From IMG/VR virus record IMGVR_UViG_3300027771_000009, positions 16,881 through 80,880 of that record: DNA of 64,000 nt, one strand, 5' to 3'. The notes under the pieces were generated by a model, which was not told the DNA's origin, did not search any database, and saw only the letters and a list, made by a program, of their open reading frames with translations. The DNA comes from a virus. Of this stretch, positions 17,570 through 61,030 are shown piece by piece (within the stretch, counting starts at the first letter, position 1; each line of letters starts with the position of its first letter). The translations under genes were made by a program, and so were the position numbers.

Positions 17570-20500
17570 ATGAAATACACAGGTAAAAACCCAAATGGTT
17601 TAAATCAAATCAGTCAAAGTTTACTATCATTAGATGTAAATGGAGTTGAGCAACTAAATATTTCAACTGATTCGGTTATTATTAACACCGAATTATCAGT
17701 TGAGAAAGGTATTTCTGCCGTTTCATATACTGGTTCGGTATTTAGTGGAAGTGAGGTGGTTACATCCACACTTACTGCAGATGGTATCGTTGTAGGTACG
17801 ATAGATGGTACAATTATTAGTGGTACTGAATTTAGTGGCTCATTTAGTGGGTCTTTTGAAGGTGACGGAAATTCTATAACCAATATACCTACATCAGCAT
17901 TGGTTGGTGATATCAATAGAATTGCTGAAGGTGATTCTAACGCAACTATAACTGATGATAAACTTTCAATAAATGTTGATACTGATATAACTGGTTCAGT
18001 ATTAGTAACAAACACACTTTCAGCATCTTTTGTAGAAGGTGATGGTAGTAGGTTGTTTAATATATCAGCTGATTCGGTTGGTGATATTAATAGATTACAA
18101 TCTGGTTCCGCAACAGCTATAATCTCTCCTAATGAAGGTTTAGTTACCAATGTAGGAATTGTAACTCAAAAGTATTTGGGTGTGTCTGGTTCTGCTAATA
18201 TAGCTGGAGACTTAGATGTAGAAGGAACTGCAACAATCCAAAACTTAAATGTTGAGGGAATAATTACAACAACTGAGTTAAAGGCAACTTACATTTCATC
18301 ATCAATAATTTACGCAACTGGTTCAAACAAATTTGGAGATGATTCTTCAGCTGTTCAAGAGTTTACTGGTTCGGTTAGAATAAAAGATACAATACAAATA
18401 CCAAAATATTCATCAGACCCTGCATCTGGTAGAGTTGGTGAAATATATTACAACGATACTGATACTAACATATATCGATATACAGGTACCGAATGGTTAG
18501 AGGCAGCTGGAACGGCTGGTTCTTCTGGAACATCTGGAACATCTGGAACATCTGGTACTTCTGGTTCTTCTGGTACATCTGGTACATCTGGTTCTTCTGG
18601 AACATCTGGTGAAGATGGTACTGATGGAAGCGGTGGTACTTCTGGTACTTCTGGTACTTCTGGTACATCTGGAACATCTGGTTCTGGTGGTACATCTGGT
18701 TCTGGAGGCACATCAGGAACTTCTGGTACATCTGGAACGTCTGGTTCTGGTGGTACATCTGGTACTTCTGGAAGTAGTGGTACAAGTGGTACATCTGGTT
18801 CTTCTGGTGAAGATGGTACTGATGGTAGTGAGGGTACTTCTGGTACTTCTGGAACAAGCGGTACTTCTGGTACTTCTGGTTCTTCTGGTACAAAGGGAAC
18901 TGCTGGTAGTGGAGGAACATCTGGTTCATCTGGATTTGGTTCGTCTGGTACAAGTGGTAGTGGTGGAACTGCTGGAACTGGTGGTAGTGGTGGTACTTCT
19001 GGTACTTCTGGTACTTCTGGTACTTCTGGTACTTCTGGTACTTCTGGTGAAGATGGTACTGGTGGAACATCTGGGACAAGTGGAACATCTGGGACAAGTG
19101 GAACAAACGGAACTGCTGGAACTGGTGGTAGTGGAGGTACTTCTGGTACTTCTGGTACATCGGGAACTTCAGGTACATCTGGTACATCTGGTACATCCGG
19201 ATTGGATGGAGCTACTGGAACTGGTGGAGCTACTGGTACATCTGGGACAAGTGGAACATCTGGAACATCTGGAACATCTGGAACAACCGGTACTTCTGGA
19301 ACAAGCGGTACTTCTGGAACATCTGGAACTAACGCAACGGCTGGTTCTGGTGGAACGGCAGGTACTTCTGGAACTTCTGGAACTTCTGGTACTTCTGGAA
19401 CAAGCGGTGTTGATGGTACATCAGGAACATCTGGGACAAGTGGAACATCTGGAACATCTGGAACTAACGGAACTGCTGGTAGTGGTGGTACAAATGGAAC
19501 TGCTGGAACTGGAGGAACTTCAGGAACGAACGGAACTGCAGGAACTGGTGGTACAAATGGAACTGCTGGTAGTGGAGGTACATCTGGTAGTGGTGGTACA
19601 AATGGAACTGCTGGAACTGGAGGAACTTCAGGAACGAACGGAACTGCAGGAACTGCTGGAACTGGTGGTACAAATGGAACTGCTGGTAGTGGGGGTACAT
19701 CTGGTACATCTGGGACAAGTGGAACATCTGGAACATCTGGAACATCTGGAACAACCGGTACTTCTGGAACAAGCGGTACTTCTGGAACATCTGGAACGAA
19801 CGGAACTGCTGGTAGTGGTGGTACAAATGGAACTGCTGGTAGTGGAGGTACATCAGGAACAAATGGAACTGCTGGTAGTGGAGGTACATCCGGAGCATTA
19901 GCATTAACTGGTACTACTAACAATGGTTTACTTACCTATGATGGTACTGGGGCAAACGTTGAGAGTAATCTTACTTTCGATGGAACAACATTAAACTTAA
20001 CTGGTAACTTAAATGTTACTGGTACACAAACAACTGTCAATACTGAAATAATTCAATTGGCAGATAATATTATAACTCTTAATTCAAACTTTACAACTGG
20101 TACTCCATCGGAGAATGCAGGTATTGAAGTATTAAGAGGTTCATCATCAACAAAATCATTTTATTGGAAAGAATCATCAGATAGATGGTATTCAGATTCA
20201 AACTTTGAAGTGTTTGGTGATTTATATACACAACGCATAAATACTGGACAAGGACTTACTGAGGTTTACAATATGAACCAAAACGTTCGTTCAACTGATT
20301 CACCTACATTCGATGGATTAACCATTGGTGATAGTGGTAACACAGGTACAACTCTAAACATTATAGCAACAAATACTGCTGGTTCTGGTGCACAAACCGC
20401 TATGATTAATATGAGTGGTTATGAAGGTAGAGCAATTGGTACTATGTTTACTGATGTATCTTATAGTGGTAGAGAATGGTTTGCTGGTTTACGATATAGT

Positions 20501-23500
20501 GGTGGATTCGCAAATTACCAAATTGGATACGATTTAACTGGTGGACAAGCTGAATACGCAACGAACTCAATGCTTACCATAAACGATAGTGGAAACGCAT
20601 TTTTCAAAGGGTATGTATCAGCTACGAGTTTTAGACCAACTAACATAGTAACAAATAGAATTGTTAAATTTGATGGAACTGATTTAGATGATTCTATAAT
20701 GAGTGATGATGGTTCTACTGTAACTCTTAGTGGTAATTTAAGTGTAACTGGTAACATTGTTGGTGACCTAAGTGGTGTTGCTAATGATGCAAATAGATTA
20801 AAAGCCGAAGATAATAGAACTATCTCACCATCGGAATTAGGTGTAGGTAGATTAAAATTTGGATTCACATCATACAATAATAATAATTCAGGTCCTTGGG
20901 CTGATTTCTTACATCTACGTTCGTACACCGATTCATCTGGTGGCTCGGATAACTTAGTGATGTTTAATAAGAGTGGTATTGGAATGAGAATCTGGCAACA
21001 AAGCTTCGGTTCTGCAACCGCATACTCATCTTATGTAGATGTGTTAGATACTGGTGCTGGTAACCAAACAAAGAGTGGATATATACAATCCAATTCTTCG
21101 TTAAGAGCACCGATATTCTACGATTCAAACAATACTGGGTATTATGTAAATCCAGGAGCTACTGATTATTCAGCTGTATTTAGACAGCACGTTACAATAG
21201 GGGATAGTTCACAATATAAACCTAACTCAGGTAATTGGGGAGCAAGATTGAACGTAGTAGATAATGTCCATGCTAAAATAACAGTTGGGCAAGATGCTAA
21301 CGATATGTTGAGTGTATGGTATGCTCATACAGGACAATCATCTGCTAAATTTGGAATGGAATCAAACCATAACTTAGAATTTATTACAAATAATAGTACT
21401 AAGTTAACAATTGATACTAACGGTAACACCCAAGCAACAACCTCGTTAAGAGCACCGATTTTCTATGATTCAAATGATACTGGAAGATATGTAAATCCAA
21501 ATGGTACATCACAACTGGGTACTATCAATATGAACAATGGTAATTTAACCGGAGTTAATCATATTACTATTAATGACCCTGGCCCAACTGAAGGTATTTC
21601 TTGGGCTGGTGGCAATCTTTGGAGAATTGTAGAATCACCTGATAATATATCAACTAATAGCGGTGGTAATTTACAAATAATTCAAAACTCTACCCGTAGA
21701 GCAACATTTAGAACTGATGGAAGTTTAAATTTACCATCTGGTGTGTTATTATCAAATGTAACAACAAATTGGCAACAATCTGCTAATAAAACAAACTTAT
21801 TAAGAGGAGGTTCTTTTAGTAATACATTAAGCAACGATACATCAACCATAAAAATATTCCCAGCAACTGCTGGTAGAGGAATTGGAAACTATTGGGGTGG
21901 TATGTACTTCATGCACTTAGACCCTCAGAATTCTGGATGGGGCTCATCTTATACTGGTGGGCAAATGTGGATTGGTGGTAGAGTAATTGACCAACCTGGT
22001 CAAGAACGAAGTGCATTAGTATTCGCTACAAATAATTCAACAAGTGCAGGTTCACATCCATCTGAGAGAATGACTATTTTACCTGATGGTAATGTGTTAA
22101 TCGGACAAACTTCGGTATCATATACAAATTCAGATAATACTCCGTTAGTGGGTGCTAAAACAAATAGTAAGTTACACATCAACGGTGGGATACAATTAAC
22201 TAACGACAACGATGCTATCGTATTTGGTAGAGGTACTTCTACCTTTATGAAAGATGAAGAGCTTGGCTTCGGATGGGGTGGTGGTTTATATATGACCGAT
22301 ACTACTTACCTAAGAATCCGAAATAATAAAATTGTTTACAATACTAATGAATTTAGAGGTAATTTATTTAGAGATGTTAATAATTCCGCATACTATGTAG
22401 ACCCAGCATCAACATCAAACTTAAATTCAATTACCGCTCAAGCAATAACTGTAAAGGGTAATCAGGTAAGAACTTATAAGCATTCTGGTTCTGATTTTAC
22501 AAATGGTACATTAGTACAAACTGATATACCATCATCATCAACTTCAGGAGCATCATTTGTGTTAGAGGCAACTGGTAAAAGTTATAGTGCGGATACTCCA
22601 TTCTCATTTATGGCACAGGGGTATTTGTATAATAACACTATTATAAATTCAAGTGGTGTACACTTTGGTAAACCAGGGTTCACTCAAATGAAGGTATTTA
22701 ATAATGGTGGAACATTAGCATTCTGGTGGCCAAGAGTATCTTATTGGAATTCATTCTCAGTTAACGTTAGAGATGCTGGTGGTAGTGAGTTTAATAGAGT
22801 AACCTCTATTGGTAACTCAACTGAACCAACTGGTACTAAGAAGGTAACGATAACAATGAAGGTATCGACTGTGTATAACCAAAACATCAATACTGGTGAT
22901 TTATACGCAACTCGTTATTATGATTCAAATAGTACTGGTTATTATTTAGACCCTGCTTCTACATCATACTTAAATGATGTAAGAGCTGATATATTTTACG
23001 ATAGGAATGATACAAACTATTACACAAACCCAGCTTCAACTTCTAGGTTAAATACTGCTAATATAACAACATTAAATACCTATGGTACAACTACTTTAGG
23101 TAATGGTAACAATGATACAACTAATATCAATGATACTCTTAAATTATGGGCTACCGATAGTGGTGATGCTCACTTCTACTTTGGTGAAAGTTCATCTAGT
23201 GGATATGGTGACCATTATTATTGGGATAGTAGTTATACAACATATCATTACAGTAGAAATGCTGGAACTGATTCATTAATATCGAAACATGATACTCGTA
23301 ATACCGATAGGATAACATATGGTAGAAATATTTCGTTTGATGATTATGGTAAGGGAATTACAGGTAGATACTCAGCAAGTAGATACCAATTACTATTCTC
23401 TATGGGGGATGCATATCAACTGCCTGATAGTGGTACAAGTACTGGTAACTTATATGGTGTAGCTTGGTCACATCCAAACGCTGGAGGTGCTGCAAGTAAC

Positions 23501-26500
23501 CTAAATGACCACGGTATGTTAATTCTACTGAATGGTACTTTTAAGGCAGCAATATCAAGTAGAGCAGTATTTACAGATGAAGTAAGAGGAACATTATTCA
23601 GAGATTATAATAGTAGTGGATATTACTTAGACCCTGCATCAACATCAAACTTAAATGTTGTAAATGCAAATACATTTAATGGTACTTTTAATGGTACATT
23701 AACTGGTACGGCTCAAAACGCAAATCATTTAAATACAACGAGAGATACTCCTGAGAACTCATTACAATATTGGCAAGCATCTGGTCTTGGTATTACTGAG
23801 GCACCAACAACGGATTGGCATAATACTATAAGAATGGGACATGGTTCACCATTATCCTATTATAGTAATACATTGGCAATTCGTATGACTGGTTCTAATG
23901 TGGGTGATATCTACACCCAAACCATTCAGAGTGGTAATAGACAAGGTTGGAAAAGACATTGGAATGATGGTATAGCTATTAATTCAACATATGATATATC
24001 GGCACCAATATTCTATGATATAAATAATACTGGATATTATGTAAACGCTGCTTCAACTTCTAGATTTAATAGATTAGACTTCGGTAATAGTTCGTATTAC
24101 ATTCACTCTGGTGATTGGGGTATGCGAAACACAACACCATCTGGTTGGATTCAATTTGGACCTGCTAATACAAGTCATGCACACATTTATACTGATAGAA
24201 GTAACTTCTACTTTAATAAACAGATTAATGTATTGGGTGGTTCTCAGATGAATCAAAGTGATGTTAGAGGTAACATATTCTATACTAAGAATAATACTGC
24301 ATATTATATTGATGGTGACGGTCAATCTAGATTAAATACGCTTACCTTAGTTGGTAATCGGATTGGATTCGTTAACACATCATTTGATGCTGAAATTAGA
24401 GTAAGTGATGATAATCCAAACGGAACTGGAGCTGAATTTGTATTCTATGGTGATACTCTTGCTGGACATGCACAACTTACTGCTAAGGTTGGTAACTTTA
24501 CATCAAATGTAAGAACTCCGATAATGTACGATTCAAATGATACTTCGTATTATATAAATGCAGCATCCGATAGTAGACTGAATGGAAAATTACAAGTAGA
24601 TGGTTCACATGGTGATACACAAATAGGTCTTAGATTACCTGCGGCTAGCAACGGAGCTGGTACTGGTGATGTAAATTTACAAATGTGGGTTTCTGAACCA
24701 GGTAATACTTGGGATTGGGCTGGATTTGGATATAACGTTAGTAATAGTATTAATGGTGGTGGTGGTGCACCAAACTTTGGTAGACATAATACTTCACATG
24801 GACAGGGGTATATGAGATTCAGTACTGGTGGTGATATCTATTTCTATAACACAAATACATCAGGTACTCGTTATCAGACGATGTCGTGGAACGCAAATAA
24901 CACTGTTACTGCTAACAACTATTTAACTGGAACAAATTCATTAAGAGCACCAATTTTCTATGATTCAAATGATACTGGACATTACTTAAATCCTGCATCT
25001 ACTTCTAGACTTAATAGAATAGATGTTGATATAATGTATGATAGAGATAATACATCATATTATGTTAGACCTGGTTCAACATCGTTATTTAATGATGCAA
25101 GAGCTAACATATTCTATTCTCGTAGTAATACTGGATACTATTCAGATCCTGAATCGACATCACGTCTAAATCAGGTAACTGCTAACTCAATTGATGCAAC
25201 TAACATTAACAATACGGATGTATGGTCTGGTGATATTAATGTTGGGGGTGATGCAAATACATATTATCCTGTAACGTGGTATGGTGGAAATCAAGCTATT
25301 GTTTGTGAGATAGAAATTTATAGAAATTACAATGAAACCGCACCTTGGGACCCAATCGGAACAGGATCTCATAAAGGTGGATTAACGTTCAGACATACTA
25401 CCAACTTTGGTGGATGGGGTGGAGCATCCTATGAAAGCAATATTGAAGATTTTAGAGAATCATATACAACAATGGTAGCTGATGTACAAAGATTCGCTAA
25501 TAGTAGAGGATGGTGTATATGGTTAAGAGGTGGTGGAGCAGTATATCACGTTAGAATTAAAGGTAGAAGTGTTGGACCAACTGTAACCCTTGGAGCTTAT
25601 GACCCTGGTGGTAATGGTACTGGTGTTACATCAAGAACTGATACACCTAAAACTAATTTATATAGTAGATTTCATTTACGTAATCAATACGTATATGCTG
25701 ATAGATTTTATGATAACAATAATACTGGATATTACTTAGACCCTGCATCTACATCGTATTTAAATGATGTAAGGGCTAACATTTACTATGAAAGAGAAAA
25801 CACCGCATACTACTTTGGTAGTTCGCAAGGTGATTTCAGAATGAGAAATGGTAGAATGGGTAGTGTTACCATTGAAAATGGTTCAACTCTTACATCGGTT
25901 AATGGAAATGGTAGAATTTATATGGGTGGTAACTTCCATATTGATGCATATAATGGAAACGATATCTATGTAAACTATTATTCTAATAGAAGATTCAGAG
26001 TATTCAATGGTTCATCTAATGAATCGTTTAGAGTAGATACTGATAGAATTGTTTACGCATACTCACAACTTCGTACTCCAATTGTTTACGATTATAATGA
26101 TACTGGATATTATTCAGACCCTAGAAGTACATCTAGATTCAATGAGATGCGTGCAACGTATAGATTACACATTGGTGATGAATCTAATTTATACAATGGT
26201 GTAGTTGGTGAAGCTCGTAGACCTGACTTAACTATTAAAGGACAGTATCCTCAGTTAAACTTAATGTCATCTGAGATTAACAATAGTACTCATGGACCTA
26301 CTCTTAGATTTGTTGCATATGATGGTGCAAACGCATCTTCTGGTAACAAAAAACATTGGGTAATTGGTACTGCTGGTACAAACGCAACCGCATTACACTT
26401 TGGATACACTCCAAATAACAATAATCCTCATTATGGAATTGGACAAGGTTGGAGTAGTGGAAACAATGTTTCTATGTTCTGGTTACAAAACGATAGACAT

Positions 26501-29485
26501 GTTTACGCTCAAAATGATGTAAGAGCTGGATTATTCAGAGATAGAAATAATACTGGATATTACGTAGACCCGGCATCTAATTCTGTTTTAAACACAGCAA
26601 CTTATAATGGTACGATACGACTTAATACTCGTCATGGTACGGTAGCAACTAACTATGGTTATGGTAACTATGGTGTATATAGTGCTTCTAGGTATCAATT
26701 ATTATGGTCAATGGGTACTTCATACAATTTACCGAATGGTGGTGAAAACACTGGTAACTTATATGGTGTAGCTTGGTCACATCCAAACGCTGGAGGTGCT
26801 GCAAGTAACCTAAATGACCACGGTATGTTAATTCTACTGAATGGTACTTTTAAGGCAGCAATATCAAGTAGAGCAGTATTTACAAATGAAGTAAGAGGAA
26901 CATTATTCAGAGATTATAATAGTAGTGGATATTACTTAGACCCTGCATCAACATCAAACTTAAATGCAGTAAATGCCAACTCTATGAATGTTGGTGGTTC
27001 ACCGGTTGTAACTGGTACGTCTATTCAAAACTACACTCGTAATGTAGATGATGGTAATTTCTTCAATATTACGGATGATATGAACGCTACTGAAGTTGCT
27101 CGTCAAGTTTCTGGTGGAGGTGGAACTTCTAGACTTACTAAAGTGGATGATAACACCGCACCAGCTGCTGGTTGTTTCGAAGTAAACGGACAGTGGTCCC
27201 CAACTCATTCGGATTACATCAAAATTGATGCAAACTCCGAATATGTGTTCGAAGTTTGGATAAAATATGTTGCAGGTACTGATAGTAGTTGTGCATTGTA
27301 TATGGGTGGTTCCGCATATAACGCTTCAAAATCATACTTTGGTAATACAAATAGATATTGGGCAGCATCTTATGTAGAAGTCGATTCTAATACTAGAAAC
27401 AATGGTTGGTATAAAATAAGTGGTAAAATTGGTGGTATTGGTGGAACGGCATTTACGGCAGGAACTGAATACATCAGACCGTTATTCTTATTTAACTATG
27501 CTGGTAATAGTACACATAGAACGAGGTATTGTGGATTAAAACTTTACAAATCGGAAAAGACAGTTAGTAAATTACACTTCCATAGTCAAGGTAGATATGT
27601 ACACACCGAATCGGATGAATTGTATCCATTCTTACGTGGAGAAGGTAATCAATCTCTAGTAATCCAATCTGGTACAGGTTGGGCTAAAATGGGTTCTAGA
27701 AACACATCACATTTACATATGGAAACGGATAGAAGTTCTTGGTACTTCTATAATCGTATTGAAACTCCATCTGATATTAGAGCAGGTTTATTCTACGATA
27801 GAAATAATACTGCTTATGTAGCAAATCCCGCTTCTACATCGTACTTTAACGATATGAGGGCAAATATCTTCTATGATAGAAACAATGCTTCATATTATGG
27901 ACATTTCGATTCTACATCTCGATTTAATAGAGCAGATTTAAACGATACTCGTTCAGATATATTCTACGATAGAAATGACACTGGTTATTATATAAATCCT
28001 GCTAGTGTTAACTCTTCTCGATTCGAAGGAGTTAATGATAGAACGAGAGCACAATTAGGAAACGCCGCATCACGTCATAGTAGTGCAGCTACATTCATGC
28101 GTAGACCAAACTATACATCTGACCAAAACTATTGGGTAGGTTCAATGGGGTGGGGTACTCAGAATATGAACAACGTATTCAATTGGGGTTCTGGATTTAC
28201 TGATTCTTGGTCTAATCCAGGTAATCAACCATCTGGTACATCGCATTGGGTAGGTATACAATCACTACACTATACTAATGGTTCAACTCGTTATGGTTGG
28301 CAAATGACTGGTGGTCCAATTGATAACCTACGATTCAGAAATCAATGGGGTGGTTCACCAAAAGCTTGGAGAACTATTCCTGTACTTGATATCAATAACG
28401 GTAATGGTGGTTCAATGTATGCGGGCAGATATTATGATTCAAATAATACTGGATATTACGCAGACCCTGCATCTACATCTGTATTTAATGCATTAACTGT
28501 AAACGGAACATTATCAGCAAATTTACCTTGGAGTAGAGTTACTTCAAAACCTGATGGTTGGTTAAATGCAGGAACTCTAACCAGAAATGCGGCACCAACT
28601 GGAATTAAGCCAAGTGGGTTCTATGATTCATATCAAGGTTCTGGAAATCCTACTGGTACTTGGATGTCTTACTATAATGTACGACATACCAACAGCGGCA
28701 ACAACTACGGTCATCAGGCTGGTATGAGTTTCTATGATGATACCTTTTGGTTTAGAGCGTTTACAAACAATAGTTATAGACAATGGCAATTTGTACTATC
28801 ATCTAATGGCACTGCACAAACAAAATCAGGTGTATTACAATCCAACTCATCTTTAAGAGCACCGATATTCTACGATAAGGATAATACTGGGTATTATACA
28901 AAGCAAAGTGGTGTATCGGAAATGTCAAATATAGCTATTGATAGTTACATCAGACATAGAGGTGATACTAACACATATATGCAGTTCCATGCGGCTGACC
29001 AATGGAGAGTTGTAACTGGTGGTACTGAAAGATTTGAGGTGAATAACTCTCAAATCTATATGACTAGAGAATTGAGATGTACACAAGATGTTATCGCATT
29101 TTATTCTGATGAAAGATTAAAAGAAAAGACTGGTAAGATTGAATCTCCATTAGATAAGATTTCTCAATTGGATGCATTCTATTATGTAAATAATGATTTA
29201 GCAAAATCAGTTGGATATGAAGATGATAAACAACAAATAGGTTTATCAGCTCAGCAAGTTAAAGAAGTAATGCCTGAGGTTGTTCATTCAGCACCATTCG
29301 ATACTGATTTTGATGAGGATGGTAATATGTTCTCTACATCTGGTGAAGATTACTTAACTCTTAAATACGATAGATTAGTTCCATTATTAGTTGAAGGTAT
29401 TAAAGAACAAACTGAAATTGTGAAATCTCAACAAAGAGAAATAGATGAATTGAAGGAAATGGTAAAACTTTTACTAAATAAATAA
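17570..29485 (+). CDS. giant collagen-like tail fibre with S74 chaperone
   Basis: A 3,971-residue fibre. Residues 1-310 hold a few SGS/GDGS units like those of the first giant. Residues about 312-775 are proline-free Gly-X-Y. The next 3,000 residues carry about 22 copies of FYDxN-x-TGYYxxPASTSxLN separated by variable beta domains, including a possible carbohydrate-binding domain at nt 27,000-27,550. The C-terminus has YSDERLKE (S3846-D3847), IGLSAQQVKEVMPEVV and YLTLKYDRLVPLLVEGIKEQ, then a coiled coil, which is the peptidase S74 intramolecular chaperone. In that family the chaperone trimerises the fibre and cuts itself off at the Ser-Asp. Probably the main distal host-recognition fibre. Confidence 0.85.
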   Translation: MKYTGKNPNGLNQISQSLLSLDVNGVEQLNISTDSVIINTELSVEKGISAVSYTGSVFSGSEVVTSTLTADGIVVGTIDGTIISGTEFSGSFSGSFEGDGNSITNIPTSALVGDINRIAEGDSNATITDDKLSINVDTDITGSVLVTNTLSASFVEGDGSRLFNISADSVGDINRLQSGSATAIISPNEGLVTNVGIVTQKYLGVSGSANIAGDLDVEGTATIQNLNVEGIITTTELKATYISSSIIYATGSNKFGDDSSAVQEFTGSVRIKDTIQIPKYSSDPASGRVGEIYYNDTDTNIYRYTGTEWLEAAGTAGSSGTSGTSGTSGTSGSSGTSGTSGSSGTSGEDGTDGSGGTSGTSGTSGTSGTSGSGGTSGSGGTSGTSGTSGTSGSGGTSGTSGSSGTSGTSGSSGEDGTDGSEGTSGTSGTSGTSGTSGSSGTKGTAGSGGTSGSSGFGSSGTSGSGGTAGTGGSGGTSGTSGTSGTSGTSGTSGEDGTGGTSGTSGTSGTSGTNGTAGTGGSGGTSGTSGTSGTSGTSGTSGTSGLDGATGTGGATGTSGTSGTSGTSGTSGTTGTSGTSGTSGTSGTNATAGSGGTAGTSGTSGTSGTSGTSGVDGTSGTSGTSGTSGTSGTNGTAGSGGTNGTAGTGGTSGTNGTAGTGGTNGTAGSGGTSGSGGTNGTAGTGGTSGTNGTAGTAGTGGTNGTAGSGGTSGTSGTSGTSGTSGTSGTTGTSGTSGTSGTSGTNGTAGSGGTNGTAGSGGTSGTNGTAGSGGTSGALALTGTTNNGLLTYDGTGANVESNLTFDGTTLNLTGNLNVTGTQTTVNTEIIQLADNIITLNSNFTTGTPSENAGIEVLRGSSSTKSFYWKESSDRWYSDSNFEVFGDLYTQRINTGQGLTEVYNMNQNVRSTDSPTFDGLTIGDSGNTGTTLNIIATNTAGSGAQTAMINMSGYEGRAIGTMFTDVSYSGREWFAGLRYSGGFANYQIGYDLTGGQAEYATNSMLTINDSGNAFFKGYVSATSFRPTNIVTNRIVKFDGTDLDDSIMSDDGSTVTLSGNLSVTGNIVGDLSGVANDANRLKAEDNRTISPSELGVGRLKFGFTSYNNNNSGPWADFLHLRSYTDSSGGSDNLVMFNKSGIGMRIWQQSFGSATAYSSYVDVLDTGAGNQTKSGYIQSNSSLRAPIFYDSNNTGYYVNPGATDYSAVFRQHVTIGDSSQYKPNSGNWGARLNVVDNVHAKITVGQDANDMLSVWYAHTGQSSAKFGMESNHNLEFITNNSTKLTIDTNGNTQATTSLRAPIFYDSNDTGRYVNPNGTSQLGTINMNNGNLTGVNHITINDPGPTEGISWAGGNLWRIVESPDNISTNSGGNLQIIQNSTRRATFRTDGSLNLPSGVLLSNVTTNWQQSANKTNLLRGGSFSNTLSNDTSTIKIFPATAGRGIGNYWGGMYFMHLDPQNSGWGSSYTGGQMWIGGRVIDQPGQERSALVFATNNSTSAGSHPSERMTILPDGNVLIGQTSVSYTNSDNTPLVGAKTNSKLHINGGIQLTNDNDAIVFGRGTSTFMKDEELGFGWGGGLYMTDTTYLRIRNNKIVYNTNEFRGNLFRDVNNSAYYVDPASTSNLNSITAQAITVKGNQVRTYKHSGSDFTNGTLVQTDIPSSSTSGASFVLEATGKSYSADTPFSFMAQGYLYNNTIINSSGVHFGKPGFTQMKVFNNGGTLAFWWPRVSYWNSFSVNVRDAGGSEFNRVTSIGNSTEPTGTKKVTITMKVSTVYNQNINTGDLYATRYYDSNSTGYYLDPASTSYLNDVRADIFYDRNDTNYYTNPASTSRLNTANITTLNTYGTTTLGNGNNDTTNINDTLKLWATDSGDAHFYFGESSSSGYGDHYYWDSSYTTYHYSRNAGTDSLISKHDTRNTDRITYGRNISFDDYGKGITGRYSASRYQLLFSMGDAYQLPDSGTSTGNLYGVAWSHPNAGGAASNLNDHGMLILLNGTFKAAISSRAVFTDEVRGTLFRDYNSSGYYLDPASTSNLNVVNANTFNGTFNGTLTGTAQNANHLNTTRDTPENSLQYWQASGLGITEAPTTDWHNTIRMGHGSPLSYYSNTLAIRMTGSNVGDIYTQTIQSGNRQGWKRHWNDGIAINSTYDISAPIFYDINNTGYYVNAASTSRFNRLDFGNSSYYIHSGDWGMRNTTPSGWIQFGPANTSHAHIYTDRSNFYFNKQINVLGGSQMNQSDVRGNIFYTKNNTAYYIDGDGQSRLNTLTLVGNRIGFVNTSFDAEIRVSDDNPNGTGAEFVFYGDTLAGHAQLTAKVGNFTSNVRTPIMYDSNDTSYYINAASDSRLNGKLQVDGSHGDTQIGLRLPAASNGAGTGDVNLQMWVSEPGNTWDWAGFGYNVSNSINGGGGAPNFGRHNTSHGQGYMRFSTGGDIYFYNTNTSGTRYQTMSWNANNTVTANNYLTGTNSLRAPIFYDSNDTGHYLNPASTSRLNRIDVDIMYDRDNTSYYVRPGSTSLFNDARANIFYSRSNTGYYSDPESTSRLNQVTANSIDATNINNTDVWSGDINVGGDANTYYPVTWYGGNQAIVCEIEIYRNYNETAPWDPIGTGSHKGGLTFRHTTNFGGWGGASYESNIEDFRESYTTMVADVQRFANSRGWCIWLRGGGAVYHVRIKGRSVGPTVTLGAYDPGGNGTGVTSRTDTPKTNLYSRFHLRNQYVYADRFYDNNNTGYYLDPASTSYLNDVRANIYYERENTAYYFGSSQGDFRMRNGRMGSVTIENGSTLTSVNGNGRIYMGGNFHIDAYNGNDIYVNYYSNRRFRVFNGSSNESFRVDTDRIVYAYSQLRTPIVYDYNDTGYYSDPRSTSRFNEMRATYRLHIGDESNLYNGVVGEARRPDLTIKGQYPQLNLMSSEINNSTHGPTLRFVAYDGANASSGNKKHWVIGTAGTNATALHFGYTPNNNNPHYGIGQGWSSGNNVSMFWLQNDRHVYAQNDVRAGLFRDRNNTGYYVDPASNSVLNTATYNGTIRLNTRHGTVATNYGYGNYGVYSASRYQLLWSMGTSYNLPNGGENTGNLYGVAWSHPNAGGAASNLNDHGMLILLNGTFKAAISSRAVFTNEVRGTLFRDYNSSGYYLDPASTSNLNAVNANSMNVGGSPVVTGTSIQNYTRNVDDGNFFNITDDMNATEVARQVSGGGGTSRLTKVDDNTAPAAGCFEVNGQWSPTHSDYIKIDANSEYVFEVWIKYVAGTDSSCALYMGGSAYNASKSYFGNTNRYWAASYVEVDSNTRNNGWYKISGKIGGIGGTAFTAGTEYIRPLFLFNYAGNSTHRTRYCGLKLYKSEKTVSKLHFHSQGRYVHTESDELYPFLRGEGNQSLVIQSGTGWAKMGSRNTSHLHMETDRSSWYFYNRIETPSDIRAGLFYDRNNTAYVANPASTSYFNDMRANIFYDRNNASYYGHFDSTSRFNRADLNDTRSDIFYDRNDTGYYINPASVNSSRFEGVNDRTRAQLGNAASRHSSAATFMRRPNYTSDQNYWVGSMGWGTQNMNNVFNWGSGFTDSWSNPGNQPSGTSHWVGIQSLHYTNGSTRYGWQMTGGPIDNLRFRNQWGGSPKAWRTIPVLDINNGNGGSMYAGRYYDSNNTGYYADPASTSVFNALTVNGTLSANLPWSRVTSKPDGWLNAGTLTRNAAPTGIKPSGFYDSYQGSGNPTGTWMSYYNVRHTNSGNNYGHQAGMSFYDDTFWFRAFTNNSYRQWQFVLSSNGTAQTKSGVLQSNSSLRAPIFYDKDNTGYYTKQSGVSEMSNIAIDSYIRHRGDTNTYMQFHAADQWRVVTGGTERFEVNNSQIYMTRELRCTQDVIAFYSDERLKEKTGKIESPLDKISQLDAFYYVNNDLAKSVGYEDDKQQIGLSAQQVKEVMPEVVHSAPFDTDFDEDGNMFSTSGEDYLTLKYDRLVPLLVEGIKEQTEIVKSQQREIDELKEMVKLLLNK
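18505..19895 (+). repeat. collagen-like Gly-X-Y array of fibre 2
   Basis: About 460 residues of Gly-X-Y with Thr, Ser, Ala and Asn and no proline. Composition differs from the arrays of fibre 1: GTNGTAGSGGTNG units are frequent towards the end. A block of roughly 100 bases starting near 19,490 is repeated almost exactly starting near 19,595, a sign of slippage or recombination. Confidence 0.8.
23441..23657 (+). repeat. 217-bp near-identical direct repeat, copy 1
   Basis: This segment matches 26750-26966 at 216 of 217 bases by direct reading; the one difference is G at 23576 against A at 26885 (Asp to Asn). The copies are 3,309 bases apart, exactly 1,103 codons, so they are in the same frame. 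The flanks encode similar protein but differ clearly at the DNA level. Confidence 0.9.
26750..26966 (+). repeat. 217-bp near-identical direct repeat, copy 2
   Basis: Second copy of the segment at 23441-23657. Both encode the run from TGNLYGVAWSHPNAGG to YYLDPASTSNLN. Silent sites are conserved too, so the identity is recent or maintained by gene conversion. Confidence 0.9.
29076..29485 (+). other. peptidase S74 intramolecular chaperone domain
   Basis: The last ~130 residues of the second giant fibre. The predicted self-cleavage point is at S3846-D3847 in FYSDERLK, which would release about 126 residues. The coiled coil SQQREIDELKEMVKLLLNK ends the protein. Confidence 0.8.
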
Positions 29486-46620: not shown

Positions 46621-46650
46621 AAAGGGGGAAAGAAATTTCCCTCTTTTGTT
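46621..46650 (+). terminator. Rho-independent terminator
   Basis: AAAGGGGGAAA (46621-46631), a GAAA loop and TTTCCCTCTTT (46636-46646) form an 11-base-pair stem with one G-U pair. It ends the late unit and separates it from the gp32 promoters. Confidence 0.85.
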
Positions 46651-46679
46651 GTTTATACCAATTATTTTTTGTATATTTG
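46649..46679 (+). promoter_or_regulatory. Bacteroidetes-type promoter, tandem copy 1 of 3
   Basis: TTG at 46649-46651, 20 bases, TATATTTG at 46672-46679. It overlaps the tail of the terminator. A start codon followed at once by a stop (ATG TAG, 46688-46693) lies just downstream. Confidence 0.8.
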
Positions 46680-46739
46680 TTTAACAAATGTAGAAAGATA
46701 CACATTACACGTCTATTATTAAAAAACTTTCAAAAACAT

Positions 46740-46770
46740 TTGGTAGTATCAATTATTTTTCGTATATTTG
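46740..46770 (+). promoter_or_regulatory. Bacteroidetes-type promoter, tandem copy 2 of 3
   Basis: TTG at 46740-46742, 20 bases, TATATTTG at 46763-46770. The stretch from GGTAGTATCAATTATTTTTC to TATATTTG is identical in copy 3. Confidence 0.85.
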
Positions 46771-46778
46771 TTTAACAA

Positions 46779-46826
46779 ATGGAGAAAGATACCAAAATAC
46801 TGCCACTCAAAAAGTTTTTCAAATAA
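46779..46826 (+). CDS. possible leader peptide MEKDTKILPLKKFFK
   Basis: A 15-codon frame in unit 2 of the tandem promoter array, starting 9 bases after TATATTTG. Its KDTKI-x-PL core also occurs in a second short frame in unit 3. It may be a translated leader peptide or only a by-product of the DNA repeat. Too short to judge by itself. Confidence 0.3.
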   Translation: MEKDTKILPLKKFFK

Positions 46827-46829
46827 TGT

Positions 46830-46860
46830 TTGGTAGTATCAATTATTTTTCGTATATTTG
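46830..46860 (+). promoter_or_regulatory. Bacteroidetes-type promoter, tandem copy 3 of 3
   Basis: TTG at 46830-46832, 20 bases, TATATTTG at 46853-46860, 90 bases after copy 2 and about 115 bases before the gp32 ATG. Confidence 0.85.
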
Positions 46861-55880: not shown

Positions 55881-56084
55881 ATGCCAATACTAAGAGGTCA
55901 GTCTCATCCATCTTCAAAGTTGACAGATGAGCAGGTTATACAAATAAGAAAGTTATGGAAAATGGGACATAGAAATTGTAGAGTTATGGCTCGCAACAAC
56001 AAATGTTCTTCAGCCAATATTCTAAGAATTGTTCGAAATGAAACGTGGACACATTTAAATGAATTCTGGTCTGGTAGTGTATGA
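55881..56084 (+). CDS. small helix-turn-helix DNA-binding protein
   Basis: A 67-residue, basic protein: GQSHPSSKLTDEQVIQIRKL, then GHRNCRVMARNNKCSSANIL and RIVRNETWTHL. The pattern (KLT-x-EQV-x-IR, a helix-turn-helix, R-N-x-TW) is that of small DNA-binding domains often linked to phage homing or modification genes. It begins one base after thioredoxin and overlaps the Mom-like gene by four bases. It may guide or regulate the modification genes; that is inference. Confidence 0.6.
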   Translation: MPILRGQSHPSSKLTDEQVIQIRKLWKMGHRNCRVMARNNKCSSANILRIVRNETWTHLNEFWSGSV

Positions 56085-56848
56085 AAGAAGATAAAACATA
56101 CTGTGATACATCAAAACTATCCGTTAGATTAATAACTAAATCAGTAGCAAAAGATATCATTGTTAACAACCATTATAGTGGATTGTGGACAAAAGTATCT
56201 TACGCTATTGGTTTATTTACTACTGATGTAGAAGAACACCCATTCTTTAGTGGTGTTGAAGATAAGTTAATAGGAGTTGCTTGTTATGGTGACCCAATTG
56301 GTAGAAGCGCAGGTCAATCTATAACACCTTTATTAGAAAGAGATGAGGTATTGGAACTTACTAGATTATTCGTATTTGATGATTATGGTTCAAATATAGA
56401 GAGTTGGTTTCTATCTCAAACATTTGATTGGTTACGAACCAACGTTCCTAAGATAAAAGGATTGATATCATATTCAGACCCTAAAGAAGGTCATTGTGGT
56501 ACAATATACCAAGCAACCAATTGGTTGTATCAGGGTAACAAACTACGATTTAACGATAGTTGGGATTTCCGTTGGGAAGAAAATGGTAATTGGCATCACC
56601 AAAGAACTTCATATGTGAAGTTTGGAACAAATAATCCCAAAGAAATCCAAAAGATATCAGCATCCACATTTTGGATAAGAAAGAATCCAAGAAAGCATAG
56701 ATATGTGTACATCTTATCAAAAGGTGGAATACGTAGGAAGTTAATGAAAACTATAAAGCACCCAATATTACCTTATCCAAAGGAAAACGAGCAATTTGTA
56801 GAAGAAATTATAAAAATGTCACCAATAAATTTGGTAGAATCAAATTAA
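56081..56848 (+). CDS. Mom-like DNA-modification protein, copy 1
   Basis: A 255-residue GNAT-fold-like protein of the Mom family: NHYSGLW near the N-terminus, LIGVACYGDPIG (about 63-74), LELTRLFV (91-98), SNIES, and the signature SYSDPKEGHCGTIYQATNW (130-148), then LYQG. The end has KHRYVYIL and a YPK motif, also found in phage Mom-like proteins. Mu Mom converts adenine to a bulky derivative that blocks restriction enzymes. By analogy this protein may modify phage DNA. It is 42% or so like the gene at 57,247 by eye and is joined to the small HTH gene by a four-base overlap. Confidence 0.72.
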   Translation: MKEDKTYCDTSKLSVRLITKSVAKDIIVNNHYSGLWTKVSYAIGLFTTDVEEHPFFSGVEDKLIGVACYGDPIGRSAGQSITPLLERDEVLELTRLFVFDDYGSNIESWFLSQTFDWLRTNVPKIKGLISYSDPKEGHCGTIYQATNWLYQGNKLRFNDSWDFRWEENGNWHHQRTSYVKFGTNNPKEIQKISASTFWIRKNPRKHRYVYILSKGGIRRKLMKTIKHPILPYPKENEQFVEEIIKMSPINLVESN

Positions 56849-57091: not shown

Positions 57092-57246
57092 CTGAATCAC
57101 AAGAAATAGAAGAAATCCTTTTTGAAGCACATGCACACAATATTCGTAGAGAAGTTATGGATTTAGCAAGTACTGAGTTAAAGGAAAACCCAAAAATGAG
57201 AAAAGTAGATGCTTATCAAAAAGCATACCTAACTCTAACAAAATAA
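57088..57246 (+). CDS. 52-residue protein of the Mom-like cassette, unknown
   Basis: A short acidic-to-neutral helical protein: MTESQEIEEILFEAHAHNIR, then REVMDLASTELKEN and KVDAYQKAYLTLTK. Its stop codon is directly followed by the ATG of Mom-like copy 2, and its start overlaps the previous stop. The tight packing supports a real gene in spite of its length. Function unknown. Confidence 0.5.
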   Translation: MTESQEIEEILFEAHAHNIRREVMDLASTELKENPKMRKVDAYQKAYLTLTK

Positions 57247-58050
57247 ATGAAAGAAGAAGGAAAACATTATGTTGATGCTAGTAAAGTAAGTGTAGCTCCA
57301 ATTGCTAAATCTATCGCTAAAGATATGATTATCAAAAAGCACTATACTCACGCTTGGACTGCTTGTAGGTATTCATTAGGTATATACCACACAATGGAAG
57401 AGAAGGATATATTCGGAAATGACCAACAATTGGTTGGTGTGGCAGTTTATGGGTTCCCTGTTGGAGCAAAAGCACCTACATCGGTATGTGATGGTTTAAC
57501 AAAAGATAACATCTTAGAACTCACTAGATTGTATGTAGATGATGGGTTTGGTTCAAACATAGAGAGTTGTGCATTAGGTAAAACTTTCCAATGGATAAAG
57601 GATAATGATAAAAACATTAAAGTGTTACTTTCATATGCTAATAATGGACAAGGACACGTTGGTGGAATCTACAAAGCTACCAATTGGATTTATCAGGGTT
57701 TGAACACGGATATCGCCTTGATGCCAAATTGGGGAATATCATTAAGTGATGACCCACATGATTGGATTCATAGTAGGACAGTTTATAATAATTGGGGAAG
57801 TGGTAACTTAGAACATCTTAGAAAAGAAATTGGTAAAGATGGTTATAGTGAATTTTGGAGAAGGGAAGAACCACCTAAACATAGATACATTCAGATACTT
57901 GCTACCAACAAAAAGGAAAAGAAAGATTTGATGAAACGTTTAAAACATCCAATCAGAGATTATCCGAAAGATTTAAACGCATACAATACTGATGTTATAC
58001 ATCACACAACATATTCACCTGAAGAATCAAACGAAATAAACTTTTGGTAA
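57247..58050 (+). CDS. Mom-like DNA-modification protein, copy 2
   Basis: A 267-residue paralogue of the gene at 56,081. Both begin MKE and share KS-x-AKD at about residue 21, HY at 32-33, LVGVAVYGFPVG, ILELTRLYV, SNIES, and GQGHVGGIYKATNWIYQG. The motif SYSD of copy 1 is SYAN here, so the Asp is replaced by Asn, and C-G-T by V-G-G. The C-terminal KHRYIQIL and YPK are kept. It may act on another substrate or form a pair with copy 1. Whether it is active is open. Confidence 0.72.
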   Translation: MKEEGKHYVDASKVSVAPIAKSIAKDMIIKKHYTHAWTACRYSLGIYHTMEEKDIFGNDQQLVGVAVYGFPVGAKAPTSVCDGLTKDNILELTRLYVDDGFGSNIESCALGKTFQWIKDNDKNIKVLLSYANNGQGHVGGIYKATNWIYQGLNTDIALMPNWGISLSDDPHDWIHSRTVYNNWGSGNLEHLRKEIGKDGYSEFWRREEPPKHRYIQILATNKKEKKDLMKRLKHPIRDYPKDLNAYNTDVIHHTTYSPEESNEINFW

Positions 58051-58067
58051 AATAAGTGAAATAAAGC

Positions 58068-58098
58068 TTGTGTAATCCAAATAGAAATCGTATATTAG
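58068..58098 (+). promoter_or_regulatory. variant promoter (TTG...TATATTAG), copy 1
   Basis: AAAGCTTGTGTA contains the TTG at 58068-58070; 20 bases later is TATATTAG (58091-58098). The final TTAG and the AAGCTTGTGTA box are shared only with the promoters at 58,633 and 59,637. Confidence 0.7.
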
Positions 58099-58157
58099 AG
58101 GGTAGTTGATTAGGAGATTTCATATCAACTCACTAACCCTTTAAAATAGATAAAAGT
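58099..58157 (+). promoter_or_regulatory. structured 5' leader, copy 1
   Basis: After the promoter the RNA begins about GGGTAGTTGAT. AGTTGAT (58104-58110) pairs perfectly with ATCAACT (58124-58130); GGGT may extend the stem with ACCC (about 58136-58139). The start GTAGTTGA is shared with the two other leaders. CTAACCCTTT lies before the ATG. Confidence 0.6.
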
Positions 58158-58598
58158 ATGATTGGTTCATTTAATGTAGTAAGTGTTAAAGAAGTACAAG
58201 GATTTGTAAATGGATTGGATAGATATCCAAATCAGTATAATTCGGGTAGAGTAGTTTCTTATAGTAATAGTGCAAAATCACTCTTAGTAAGGGGATTTCT
58301 CAACGGAATTGATACAAGTTTCTTTTCTCCAAGTGTAATTGTTAAAGAGGCAAAAGGATATGTAAATTATTCATCAATGAAGGAGAACGATTGGTTCTCA
58401 CAAACCGAAGGTGAAACTATATCTGCAAAAGGAAATCCAATGTTCGATAACGGACCTACGCCAAATGTGGCAATTGCAACACCTTCCACAATTACTCCTA
58501 AGATAAGTAAAGGTGATGTTATAAACATCTCATATCAACCAAAGGGTGAATTCAATGGTACCACTACTATTAAATCAGTAAAAATCAAATCCACCTAA
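58158..58598 (+). CDS. unknown early protein with internal repeats
   Basis: A 146-residue protein from ATG at 58158. It has two clear related segments, VKEVQGFVNGLD and VRGFLNGID, and a third, VKEAKGYVN, suggesting a small internal duplication. The C-terminal part is Thr/Pro/Lys-rich (TPSTITPKISKGDVINISY, then EFNGTTTIKSVKIKS) and looks like a small beta domain. No family name. Directly under the first hairpin leader and ended by a terminator, it is a one-gene unit, probably expressed early. Confidence 0.5.
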   Translation: MIGSFNVVSVKEVQGFVNGLDRYPNQYNSGRVVSYSNSAKSLLVRGFLNGIDTSFFSPSVIVKEAKGYVNYSSMKENDWFSQTEGETISAKGNPMFDNGPTPNVAIATPSTITPKISKGDVINISYQPKGEFNGTTTIKSVKIKST

Positions 58599-58612
58599 GA
58601 GTGGGTTTTTTT
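58590..58612 (+). terminator. Rho-independent terminator
   Basis: TCCAC, six-base loop, GTGGG and a run of seven T. The stop codon of the gene above is in the loop. Confidence 0.7.
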
Positions 58613-58632
58613 GAAAATAAATACGAAAAAGC

Positions 58633-58663
58633 TTGTGTATGTCAATTGTATTTCGTATATTAG
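58633..58663 (+). promoter_or_regulatory. variant promoter (TTG...TATATTAG), copy 2
   Basis: AAAGCTTGTGTA with TTG at 58633-58635; TATATTAG at 58656-58663; 20 bases between. The segment TTTCGTATATTAG is shared with copy 3. Confidence 0.75.
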
Positions 58664-58719
58664 GTGTGTAGTTGAGGTGGTTGTTCCACCACTACGTTAA
58701 CCCTTTTAAATTGAAAAAT
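58664..58719 (+). promoter_or_regulatory. structured 5' leader, copy 2
   Basis: GTAGT (58668-58672) pairs with ACTAC (58691-58695), GGTGG (58676-58680) with CCACC (58686-58690), with a TGA bulge and a TTGTT loop: ten base pairs. GTTAACCCTTTTAAATT follows before the ATG. Confidence 0.7.
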
Positions 58720-58851
58720 ATGATATTATTAAATCCTATCCTTAGTGAAGTAAAAGAAATGATGGCTGCACAAGATACACCATCATCTTATGTATATTAT
58801 GAATATACTCAGGAAGAACTATGGGATGATGAAGATTTAGGAGACTTCTAA
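58720..58851 (+). CDS. 43-residue acidic protein under hairpin leader 2
   Basis: A short, strongly acidic protein: MILLNPILSEVKEMMAAQDT, then SSYVYYEYTQEELWDDEDL and GDF. The hydrophobic N-terminal helix and acidic tail resemble phage proteins that imitate DNA or bind host enzymes, but that is only a resemblance. Strong leader and promoter and the following gene at 58,899 with a similar pre-ATG sequence suggest one operon. Confidence 0.5.
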   Translation: MILLNPILSEVKEMMAAQDTPSSYVYYEYTQEELWDDEDLGDF

Positions 58852-58898
58852 TTTTCCAATAACTTTACAAAATAATTAACCCACTTAAATTAAACAAT

Positions 58899-59624
58899 AT
58901 GTTACAAATCGGATTTTCAACAAAGTACTTTACATTATGGGATGTTCAAAATGAAACGGAATATTCCGGTTCGGAAGGGCAGTACTCTTATAACGTTACA
59001 CGTTTCACATACCTTCAGAACCTCTCTTTAGTAGAGGAAAAGGCTGTTGCTAAAGCAAAAGAAAAGGGATGTACTCAATTGGGTATTAACGATGAGTTAC
59101 GTGGTAGAAGTGGTAGAAGTTTCGAAAAAAGAACTCGTATAGAAAAGGTATTCGAATTACACCAATTTACATATGGTAAGTATGAAGGTGATGATATCAG
59201 AGAAAATACTGATGTTAATTATCTAAAGTGGTACTTTAATGAAACTGAACTAATGTTAGTAGCAGAACGTGTTTGTGAGTTGGATTCTGATTATAGTATC
59301 TATGAGAATGGAATAGTTACTTCAGAGCAATTAGATAATATAACCAAAACAAATACTATTGAGGCTGGGTTAAAAAAGACTGGAACTATTCAACTACAAA
59401 TGGAACGAAACCTTGATACTTATGGGTTTGTTCAAATAGATGGTATTCCTTACAGTTTTGAAAACTATTGTACTAGAAGTTACAATGGGTATGGGTATGG
59501 GTTACCGACCTTAAATGGTAAAGCAAAAAGAGTTAAAAACAAACTCATTGAAGTGAAAGCAGAATTTGGTGTAGTTGGTGACTGGGAGATGTGGAAAGTA
59601 ACTGAGTGGGATTTCGTAAAATAA
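58899..59624 (+). CDS. unknown early protein
   Basis: A 241-residue protein: LQIGFSTKYFTLWDVQNETE at the start, then SYNVTRFTYLQNLSLVEEKA, a basic stretch GRSGRSFEKRTRIEKVF, and a C-terminal VKAEFGVVGDWEMWKVTEWD. It is mixed alpha/beta with many aromatic residues and no cysteine cluster. No catalytic motif recognised. The pre-ATG sequence TTAACCCACTTAAATT is close to that before 58,720. It is co-transcribed with the 43-residue gene. Confidence 0.55.
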   Translation: MLQIGFSTKYFTLWDVQNETEYSGSEGQYSYNVTRFTYLQNLSLVEEKAVAKAKEKGCTQLGINDELRGRSGRSFEKRTRIEKVFELHQFTYGKYEGDDIRENTDVNYLKWYFNETELMLVAERVCELDSDYSIYENGIVTSEQLDNITKTNTIEAGLKKTGTIQLQMERNLDTYGFVQIDGIPYSFENYCTRSYNGYGYGLPTLNGKAKRVKNKLIEVKAEFGVVGDWEMWKVTEWDFVK

Positions 59625-59636
59625 ATAATAAAAAGC

Positions 59637-59667
59637 TTGTGTACGTTAATTCAATTTCGTATATTAG
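59637..59667 (+). promoter_or_regulatory. variant promoter (TTG...TATATTAG), copy 3
   Basis: AAAGCTTGTGTA with TTG at 59637-59639; TATATTAG at 59660-59667; 20 bases between. Confidence 0.75.
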
Positions 59668-59755
59668 TATGGTAGTTGAGTGAGGAAGTTCTCACCAACT
59701 CACAACGGAGGTTCGAATACCTCAATTAATAATTAATAACTTAAAAGAAAAGTTT
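59668..59755 (+). promoter_or_regulatory. structured 5' leader, copy 3
   Basis: AGTTG (59674-59678) pairs with CAACT (59696-59700), GTGAG (59680-59684) with CTCAC (59691-59695), with one bulged A and a GAAGTT loop. A second hairpin, GAGGT / ACCTC around TCGAAT (59708-59723), follows. The first stem differs in sequence from copies 1 and 2 but keeps the pairing. Confidence 0.7.
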
Positions 59756-61030
59756 ATGTTAAACACACAAAACACGCCCCCATCAATCAAAGAGGTACAA
59801 CTTGGGGATGTACCTAAAATTTATGAAGGATATCTTTATCGCTACACTAATTTAGATAACAACAAAGTTTATGTTGGTGTTCATAAAGGATATGTTGGTG
59901 ATGGGTATTGGCACTCATCTACAAATAAGGAATTTGGTAAAGAATTTCAAAGTTCCGATGGAAACTTTAAATTTGAGATTTTAGAATATGGTAATTACGC
60001 TGAGATGACAGTATCTGAAAGAAAGATTCTAAAAGATAACGATGCTAGAAATAATCCTATGTTTTACAACAAATCAAATGGCTCCGCTAAGTTTTCTCAG
60101 CCTGATAATGAGTTGATGTTAGAACTTTACACTAAGATATCAAACAAAGAGTTTCCAATTACGTATGAATCAATTGATGATGTGTATGAATTGGCGAGAT
60201 TACAAGTTCGTTCTGAGGAGATAAAGGAACATCGTTTAGAAATCAAAGAAAAAATTGATGATGCTGGTGGTAATACTGATGGGTGTAATCCTATCGTAAT
60301 TTACGAAGGTAGACAATCTGGTAAAGATATTATTGGTGATGGTAACCATACAGTGGGTGGGGCTAAGGATGCTAAACATTCTACTGTTGTTCCTGTAATT
60401 AGAATTCCAAAAGAGGTTCATGAACAATATACGAATGATGAACTTAAAGGTGTTAGTAACTTTCAAAACAAAAGACCTGAAACCATCAAAAGGGCAATGA
60501 GTGCTGATGATGCAGTTAAGTACATAGTAGGTGTTTATACAAATGGTACTCCATACGATTCAATTGGAAATAAAGAGTATTTAGGGCTTTGTGGTTTTAC
60601 CAAACGAAGAATCACTACAATTCTTAAAAAAGCAAAAGTGGAAATTGATAAGAACAATTTGGCTTTGGCTAACAAACTTTGGATTGATTATACTGATAAA
60701 GTTCACATTAAAACTAAAGATGCAGTTGTTGAGGGATTCAGAGATAGTAACACAATTTCAATGGCTTTCACATCAGCTATGTTTAAGTGGGATAATATTT
60801 TTAATACTATATTTGCTCACACCGAATACAATGAAACGACTAAAACATATAAACCCACTAAAACCAATGTAATGATTACGATATATCATCCTAATCCAGA
60901 CGCTGAAGAGAATTGGAAAACAATTCATCAACCTGTTGTCTGGTCCAAATTGAAATATTACCTATCACCATTGGGTTATACATTTAACGTACATGAGCTG
61001 GTTTCAACAATGGTAAATAAATTAGATTAA
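59756..61030 (+). CDS. GIY-YIG nuclease / ParB-like fusion protein
   Basis: A 424-residue protein. Residues about 25-100 look like a GIY-YIG nuclease: GYLYRYTNLDNNKVYVGVHK, then GYWHSS and MTVSERKILK with the acidic residue of that family. Residues about 180-222 resemble the ParB/sulfiredoxin-type domain: IVIYEGRQSGKDIIGDGNHT, then VVPVIRIPKE. A helix-turn-helix-like region follows (about 245-305). The last 120 residues are not recognised. It may be a homing or host-DNA-degrading nuclease or a regulator. It shares one base with the next gene (TAATG). Confidence 0.55.
   Translation: MLNTQNTPPSIKEVQLGDVPKIYEGYLYRYTNLDNNKVYVGVHKGYVGDGYWHSSTNKEFGKEFQSSDGNFKFEILEYGNYAEMTVSERKILKDNDARNNPMFYNKSNGSAKFSQPDNELMLELYTKISNKEFPITYESIDDVYELARLQVRSEEIKEHRLEIKEKIDDAGGNTDGCNPIVIYEGRQSGKDIIGDGNHTVGGAKDAKHSTVVPVIRIPKEVHEQYTNDELKGVSNFQNKRPETIKRAMSADDAVKYIVGVYTNGTPYDSIGNKEYLGLCGFTKRRITTILKKAKVEIDKNNLALANKLWIDYTDKVHIKTKDAVVEGFRDSNTISMAFTSAMFKWDNIFNTIFAHTEYNETTKTYKPTKTNVMITIYHPNPDAEENWKTIHQPVVWSKLKYYLSPLGYTFNVHELVSTMVNKLD

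Follow-up and report, generated by a model that had tools for sequence, protein, structure and literature searches.

The stretch of DNA analyzed here (64,000 nt, hereafter the window) covers bases 16881 to 80880 of an 80.9 kb virus record with PHROG profile matches to a tail sheath, a tail tube, and a baseplate hub. The tail sheath matches T4-type sheaths, i.e., the gp18-type proteins of immuto, RM378, and cyanophages, and by its sequence the record is a T4-like myovirus. Two giant ORFs in the window (3723-15488, 3921 aa, and 17570-29485, 3971 aa) both contain many collagen-like repeats, the second with a Peptidase_S74 (endosialidase chaperone) end, and a search of the window for tRNA and tmRNA genes returned none.

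Three cassettes consisting of a promoter and a leader, all on the + strand, sit between a Mom-like DNA modification gene (57247-58050, +), which forms the 5' anchor of a variable locus, and a homing-endonuclease-like gene (59756-61030, +). A further Mom-like gene is found at 56081-56848, the two sharing ~66% DNA identity over a 199-bp stretch. Each cassette has the order AAAGCTTGTGTA-N16-TATATTAG, 3 to 4 nt, GTAGTTGA, hairpin, and ATG. The 64 kb window holds AAAGCTTGTGTA at three sites only (58063, 58628, and 59632, all +), with TATATTAG at 58091, 58656, and 59660, each 16 nt 3' of it, and the combined promoter pattern is restricted to these three sites in the whole 80.9 kb record (reversed control, 0). 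The corresponding ATGs at 58158, 58720, and 59756 lie 59, 56, and 88 nt past the -7 element. At the remaining promoters of the window, TATATTTG is combined with a TTTG-type -33 element, and the leaders are different and have no 5' hairpin of the cassette kind. The original prediction, which had assigned a variant promoter to these three sites alone, is borne out in this respect, and its sequences and coordinates are right. Upstream of a single-strand-binding protein gene, three of the TATATTTG promoters stand in tandem at intervals of ~91 and 90 bp (46648-46860).

The promoter of cassette 1 (58063-58098) is composed of AAAGCTTGTGTA as the -33-type and TATATTAG as the -7-type element (58091-58098). 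Its leader (58099-58157), with GTAGTTGA at 58102-58109 and CTAACCC at 58133-58139, forms an inner stem (AGTTGAT, 58104-58110, with ATCAACT, 58124-58130) and an outer stem (AGGGT, 58099-58103, with ACCCT, 58136-58140), and precedes a 146-aa ORF (58158-58598, +) that matches no known family. Just 5' of promoter 2 lies a terminator-like hairpin followed by a T run (AATCCAC-CTAAGA-GTGGGTT, 58588-58612, +). The second promoter (58628-58663, with TATATTAG at 58656-58663) is followed by leader 2 (58664-58719), whose stems pair GTAGT (58668-58672) with ACTAC (58691-58695) and GGTGG (58676-58680) with CCACC (58686-58690), with GTTAACCC at 58696-58703. Behind it are a 43-aa ORF (58720-58851, +), a TTAACCCACTTAAATTAAACAAT motif without its own promoter (58876-58898, +), and a 241-aa ORF (58899-59624, +) with a weak match to phrog_3628 (function unknown). 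Promoter 3 (59632-59667, with TATATTAG at 59660-59667) and leader 3 (59668-59755), in which AGTTG (59674-59678) pairs with CAACT (59696-59700) and GTGAGG (59680-59685) with TCTCAC (59690-59695), precede a 424-aa homing-endonuclease-like (GIY) ORF (59756-61030; phrog_314). Leader 3 holds a second hairpin (GAGGT, 59708-59712, with ACCTC, 59719-59723) whose TTCGAAT loop resembles that of a tRNA T arm but has 8 nt; in two relatives (L210/L241), the orthologous gene has leaders that lack this second hairpin.

The promoter consensus of Bacteroidota is TTTG / TAnnTTTG (PMC7366714), and the cassette promoters match this -33/-7 pattern save for the A in TATATTAG, a variant -7. Among isolated phages of Bacteroidota, the best tail-sheath match is Flavobacterium phage immuto. 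Based on the tail-sheath match and the fit of the promoters, the host is probably a member of Bacteroidota.

The three window hairpins compared with chance

By themselves, the three hairpins of the window only modestly beat chance. The 56-88 nt leaders fold into the stems that had been described, with minimum free energies of -11.5, -12.4, and -21.5 kcal/mol for leaders 1 to 3 (z = -1.7, -1.8, and -3.0). When the first 8 nt are fixed and the rest is shuffled, the joint p is ~0.0015 for three leaders that had been picked by eye as hairpins. The stem registers differ among the three, which are not one shared helix, and the window leaders alone therefore show no column-by-column compensatory change. 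The compensatory change that the original prediction read from these three copies thus does not hold for them, but it is recovered in the wider family described below.

A family of promoter-leader cassettes in viral contigs

By pattern scans of viral contigs, in which parts of the promoter or leader were used as the pattern and whole contigs were then searched, we collected 51 distinct cassettes. The family consensus is TATRTTAG-N4-GTARTTGAG-(optional hairpin)-TTAAACCC-A-rich-ATG. Its promoter part has a (C/T)TTG-type element, then TATATTAG or TATGTTAG, four nt, and GTAATTGAG or GTAGTTGAG, after which TTAAACCC and ATG are reached through a short leader rich in A or through a hairpin, e.g., TGGGGATAGAACCCCA, TTGGAGATAAAGCTCCAA, TGGGAGAGAAACTCCCA, or AGTGGGTGAGTTCCCACT. 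Multiple copies are present per contig, nearly always on the same strand, with reversed-pattern controls near zero. The cassette recurs ahead of unrelated genes, and the genes behind it are mostly small, without an assigned family, and variable between relatives.

A DNA similarity search of 57200-60600 against isolated phages gave no match, and no Rfam family reaches its gathering score in the window. None of the isolated phages searched has the cassette leader: a query with the consensus cassette retrieved short promoter-level matches only, e.g., in Tenacibaculum pT24, Chryseobacterium MA9V-1, and crAss-like phages, and the leader is absent from these records. Within the scope of these comparisons, the cassette family is widespread and apparently undescribed. 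Of the undescribed RNA family proposed originally, what stands is a promoter-plus-leader family in related phages whose hairpin appears to be selected.

Bacterial genome contigs with GCTTGTGTA-N-TATATTAG were also considered, and these matches fall mostly in coding or unrelated sequence. In L205, L267, L268, and L295-L297, a TATATTAG-GTAATTGAG leader is found together with a terminator-like hairpin (CCGACATTTTTTTATGTCGGG plus a T run) that replaces the -33 region and abuts the -7 element. Mucilaginibacter genomes (L080, L082, L093, L097, L098, L100, and others) have a common element, CTTGTGTAACCTATACACTCTATTTATATTAG followed by GCATTACCAATTATAAAC, often with a short hairpin, and this element could be a small RNA or a promoter of the host.

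Pairing, occurrence, and position of the leader hairpin

With respect to pairing, promoter leaders were picked by GTARTTGAG, 1 to 2 nt, and GG, leaving the 3' side unconstrained. A complementary 3' arm is present in 16/16 leaders picked in this way on the 5' arm alone, and their total stem score is 145; shuffling the 3' part 200 times gave 109.9 ± 8.2 and at most 131. The leaders in these pairing tests are related to one another. In an alignment of 20 leaders with the loops trimmed, which was fitted to the stem by hand and is biased towards structure (the 16-leader test is free of this bias), 88% of cells pair, compared to 61% with the 3' letters re-dealt. Two-sided changes occur in 6/6 pairs of this alignment, and the signal is lost when the partner is slid by one to three columns. 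The real-minus-swapped energy difference of an arm-swap test was equalled in 12/100 same-procedure controls and, lying within the controls, is left out of the evidence. Across the family, loops and stem sequences vary freely.

The hairpin is missing from about half of the leaders, some of them ahead of orthologous genes, which indicates that its benefit would be modest or replaceable. Clustering of the proteins behind the leaders revealed orthologous genes whose leaders differ between phages in having or lacking a hairpin (e.g., the MTYSELSTMT, MSKYGNSSYWL, MKTKFEFWLEK, and MNYLIHPETL genes), as well as some orthologous genes whose leaders carry a different hairpin. In hairpin leaders, the ATG lies at a median of 57 nt from the -7 element (interquartile range, 55-58.5), while hairpin-less leaders are shorter and more varied (35 nt; 29-41), with a few of the start sites behind these lengths set by homology. 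Counted from the presumed start of the RNA, the hairpin begins within ~10 nt, and ~25 nt separate its end from the ATG. Taken together, the matched arms, the two-sided changes, and the narrow leader length lead us to argue that the hairpin is kept by selection.

It could be that only the promoter and start region are conserved and that the hairpin, having no function itself, arose as a by-product, e.g., when short inverted sequences recombined or were duplicated. Such an origin would agree with the presence/absence polymorphism in orthologous leaders and with the modest performance of the window hairpins, but not with the complementarity of every leader in the one-arm test, the two-sided changes, or the narrow length distribution, and we regard it as doubtful. 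Slightly less credible is a specific cis-regulatory RNA, in which a phage or host protein would bind the hairpin and GTARTTGAG/TTAAACCC, in the manner of nut/boxB or put sites, and govern a regulon at the level of elongation or translation. Constant linear strings do flank a stem with two-sided changes, and each phage has several cassette copies. However, loops and stems have no conserved sequence, a protein reading no loop or stem base would be unusual, and the flanking strings persist without a hairpin ahead of orthologous genes, so that this kind of regulation seems improbable. The optional hairpin and the unconserved loops also make both an obligatory switch and a site dedicated to a single protein unlikely, which weakens the suggestion that the leaders are recognition sites or control elements.

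A T run does not follow the leader hairpin in any of the 51 leaders (0/51; none on the + strand), and a separate terminator-like hairpin upstream, as seen 5' of promoter 2, is present in 4/51 cassettes. These upstream hairpins, together with the setting in a variable region of a T4-like phage, are what would be expected if the leader hairpins were intrinsic terminators or attenuators (strict T4 PeSLs; see below) shielding the next gene from upstream read-through. The absence of T runs and the position of the hairpin 3' of the promoter, where a terminator would stop its own transcript, make this very unlikely. A processing site for RNase III was ruled out since the stems, with only 5-8 bp, are too short.

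Apparent gene exchange at the cassettes

In close relatives, the same locus differs in gene content and holds between one and three cassettes. After the Mom-like gene, the window has promoter and leader 1, the 146-aa ORF, promoter and leader 2, the 43-aa and 241-aa ORFs, promoter and leader 3, and the GIY gene, and this arrangement is identical in G002. In G007 (97.6% identical upstream), hairpin 1 is joined to the conserved 43-aa gene, with the join inside TAACCCTTT, and in G004 (89%) a near-identical hairpin 2 is joined to the 241-aa gene, the junction point being the motif that precedes this ORF in the window. Both joins fall at TTAACCC. In L210/L241 (80-85%), a single cassette after the Mom-like gene leads straight into the GIY endonuclease gene. 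These are four arrangements of one locus, with their junctions within the cassette. The 146-aa ORF is missing from this locus in G007, G004, and G019/G022, and G001 has the promoter half of G007's cassette ahead of another leader. In the stretches compared, only cassettes are common to the window and the more distant contigs G001, G003, and G005 at the DNA level (73-85% over 50-128 bp). The likeness of cassettes between distant phages could partly reflect conserved promoter sequence instead of transfer.

That phage-to-phage junctions fall within cassettes would also fit inverted repeats acting as DNA, either as operators or as recombination sites. The arm sequences, however, vary among the copies, although recognition by a DNA-binding protein or recombinase would require them to be shared, and the junctions lie outside the hairpin, at TTAACCC and around TATATTAG. 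We therefore consider a DNA-level function of the repeats extremely unlikely.

Proposed role of the cassettes

By comparison of these phages, we show that a cassette family exists, that its arms are matched, that the cassette stands before unrelated genes, and that relatives differ in entire gene modules, with the joins lying inside the cassette. Going beyond the hairpin emphasized originally, the conserved mobile unit, as judged from these comparisons, is the whole cassette, i.e., promoter, leader, and TTAACCC motif. In our preferred reading, to which we assign a probability of about 0.62, the three sites represent copies of one mobile cassette, a promoter with its 5' leader, that is PeSL-like and has a structural, non-terminating hairpin. 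Such a cassette would open with a promoter of the host's TTG/TATATTnG type, from which GTARTTGAG is transcribed first. A small hairpin, which varies in sequence and may be missing, would come next, and TTAACCC and a start region rich in A would lead to the ATG ~57 nt from the -7 element. The cassettes may fire early, and each newly acquired gene would receive from them a ready promoter and a start region free of a Shine-Dalgarno (SD) sequence. They would further provide enough homology for cassettes to recombine with one another, as the comparative evidence suggests. The hairpin near the 5' end may hinder 5'-dependent mRNA decay and may keep the SD-less, A-rich start region unpaired.

A more far-reaching possibility is that the leaders constitute a widespread, undescribed 5'-leader RNA family of T4-like Bacteroidota phages. 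A phage or host factor would then recognize the hairpin, set between two constant strings, irrespective of its sequence and coordinate early expression, and the cassette would also be the main gene-exchange joint; we hold this to be unlikely. As a mobile promoter-leader cassette, the family offers a signature, TATRTTAG-N4-GTARTTGAG...TTAAACCC, by which uncultured phages can be searched for probable early genes and probable sites of gene exchange. In addition, the natural leader pairs with and without a hairpin before orthologous genes provide a test of a 5' hairpin where ribosomes skip Shine-Dalgarno pairing.

Comparison with known systems

The nut/put antitermination leaders of lambdoid phages combine a promoter-proximal linear motif with a small hairpin and have conserved sequence or loops. 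The cassettes resemble them in having a linear motif and a small hairpin near the promoter but differ in that their stems and loops are unconserved. In the haloarchaeal virus HGTV-1, a repeated TATA box with an inverted repeat precedes most genes of one arm, for which a role in both regulation and shuffling has been proposed (PMC3950731). A promoter-like motif with an inverted repeat upstream of genes is common to both systems, the HGTV-1 promoter being, however, archaeal. Immuto (MW353175), a T4-like relative judged by its tail sheath, has a region of many small genes from 66.4 to 77 kb (L277 16445-27000). Many of these genes are preceded by a recurring unit, AAAGTTG...TATATTTAG...ATCAATAATTAAAAC-ATG, several copies of which contain a hairpin. 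The immuto hairpin, in contrast, is placed between the -33-like and -7-like parts, and GTARTTGAG leaders are absent there. These hairpin units of immuto suggest that phages of this kind may commonly combine a promoter and a hairpin in one unit.

The promoter-early stem-loop (PeSL) cassettes of T4-type phages are reportedly described by Arbiol et al. (2010) and Comeau et al. (2014); a second-hand description is given in PMC4503421. PeSLs are composite promoter and stem-loop units, several per genome, that lie between small variable genes in a hyperplastic region and at which gene modules are exchanged. A PeSL has a strong early promoter for the host polymerase and a terminator stem-loop, and exchange between neighboring PeSLs is reported to yield small DNA circles. 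Set against this second-hand description, PeSL is the nearest known system: the cassettes are found in a T4-like myovirus among small non-core genes, and gene modules appear from the comparisons to be exchanged there. By the same description, the cassettes of the window differ in having a Bacteroidota-type promoter, a stem-loop that lies inside the 5' leader and is optional and not terminator-like, and a junction motif, TTAACCC, next to the start codon. Given the lack of a terminator, we call the cassette PeSL-like in its working rather than a PeSL. Exchange cassettes made of a promoter and a stem-loop, which are known from Proteobacteria phages, would thereby be extended to T4-like phages that probably infect Bacteroidota.
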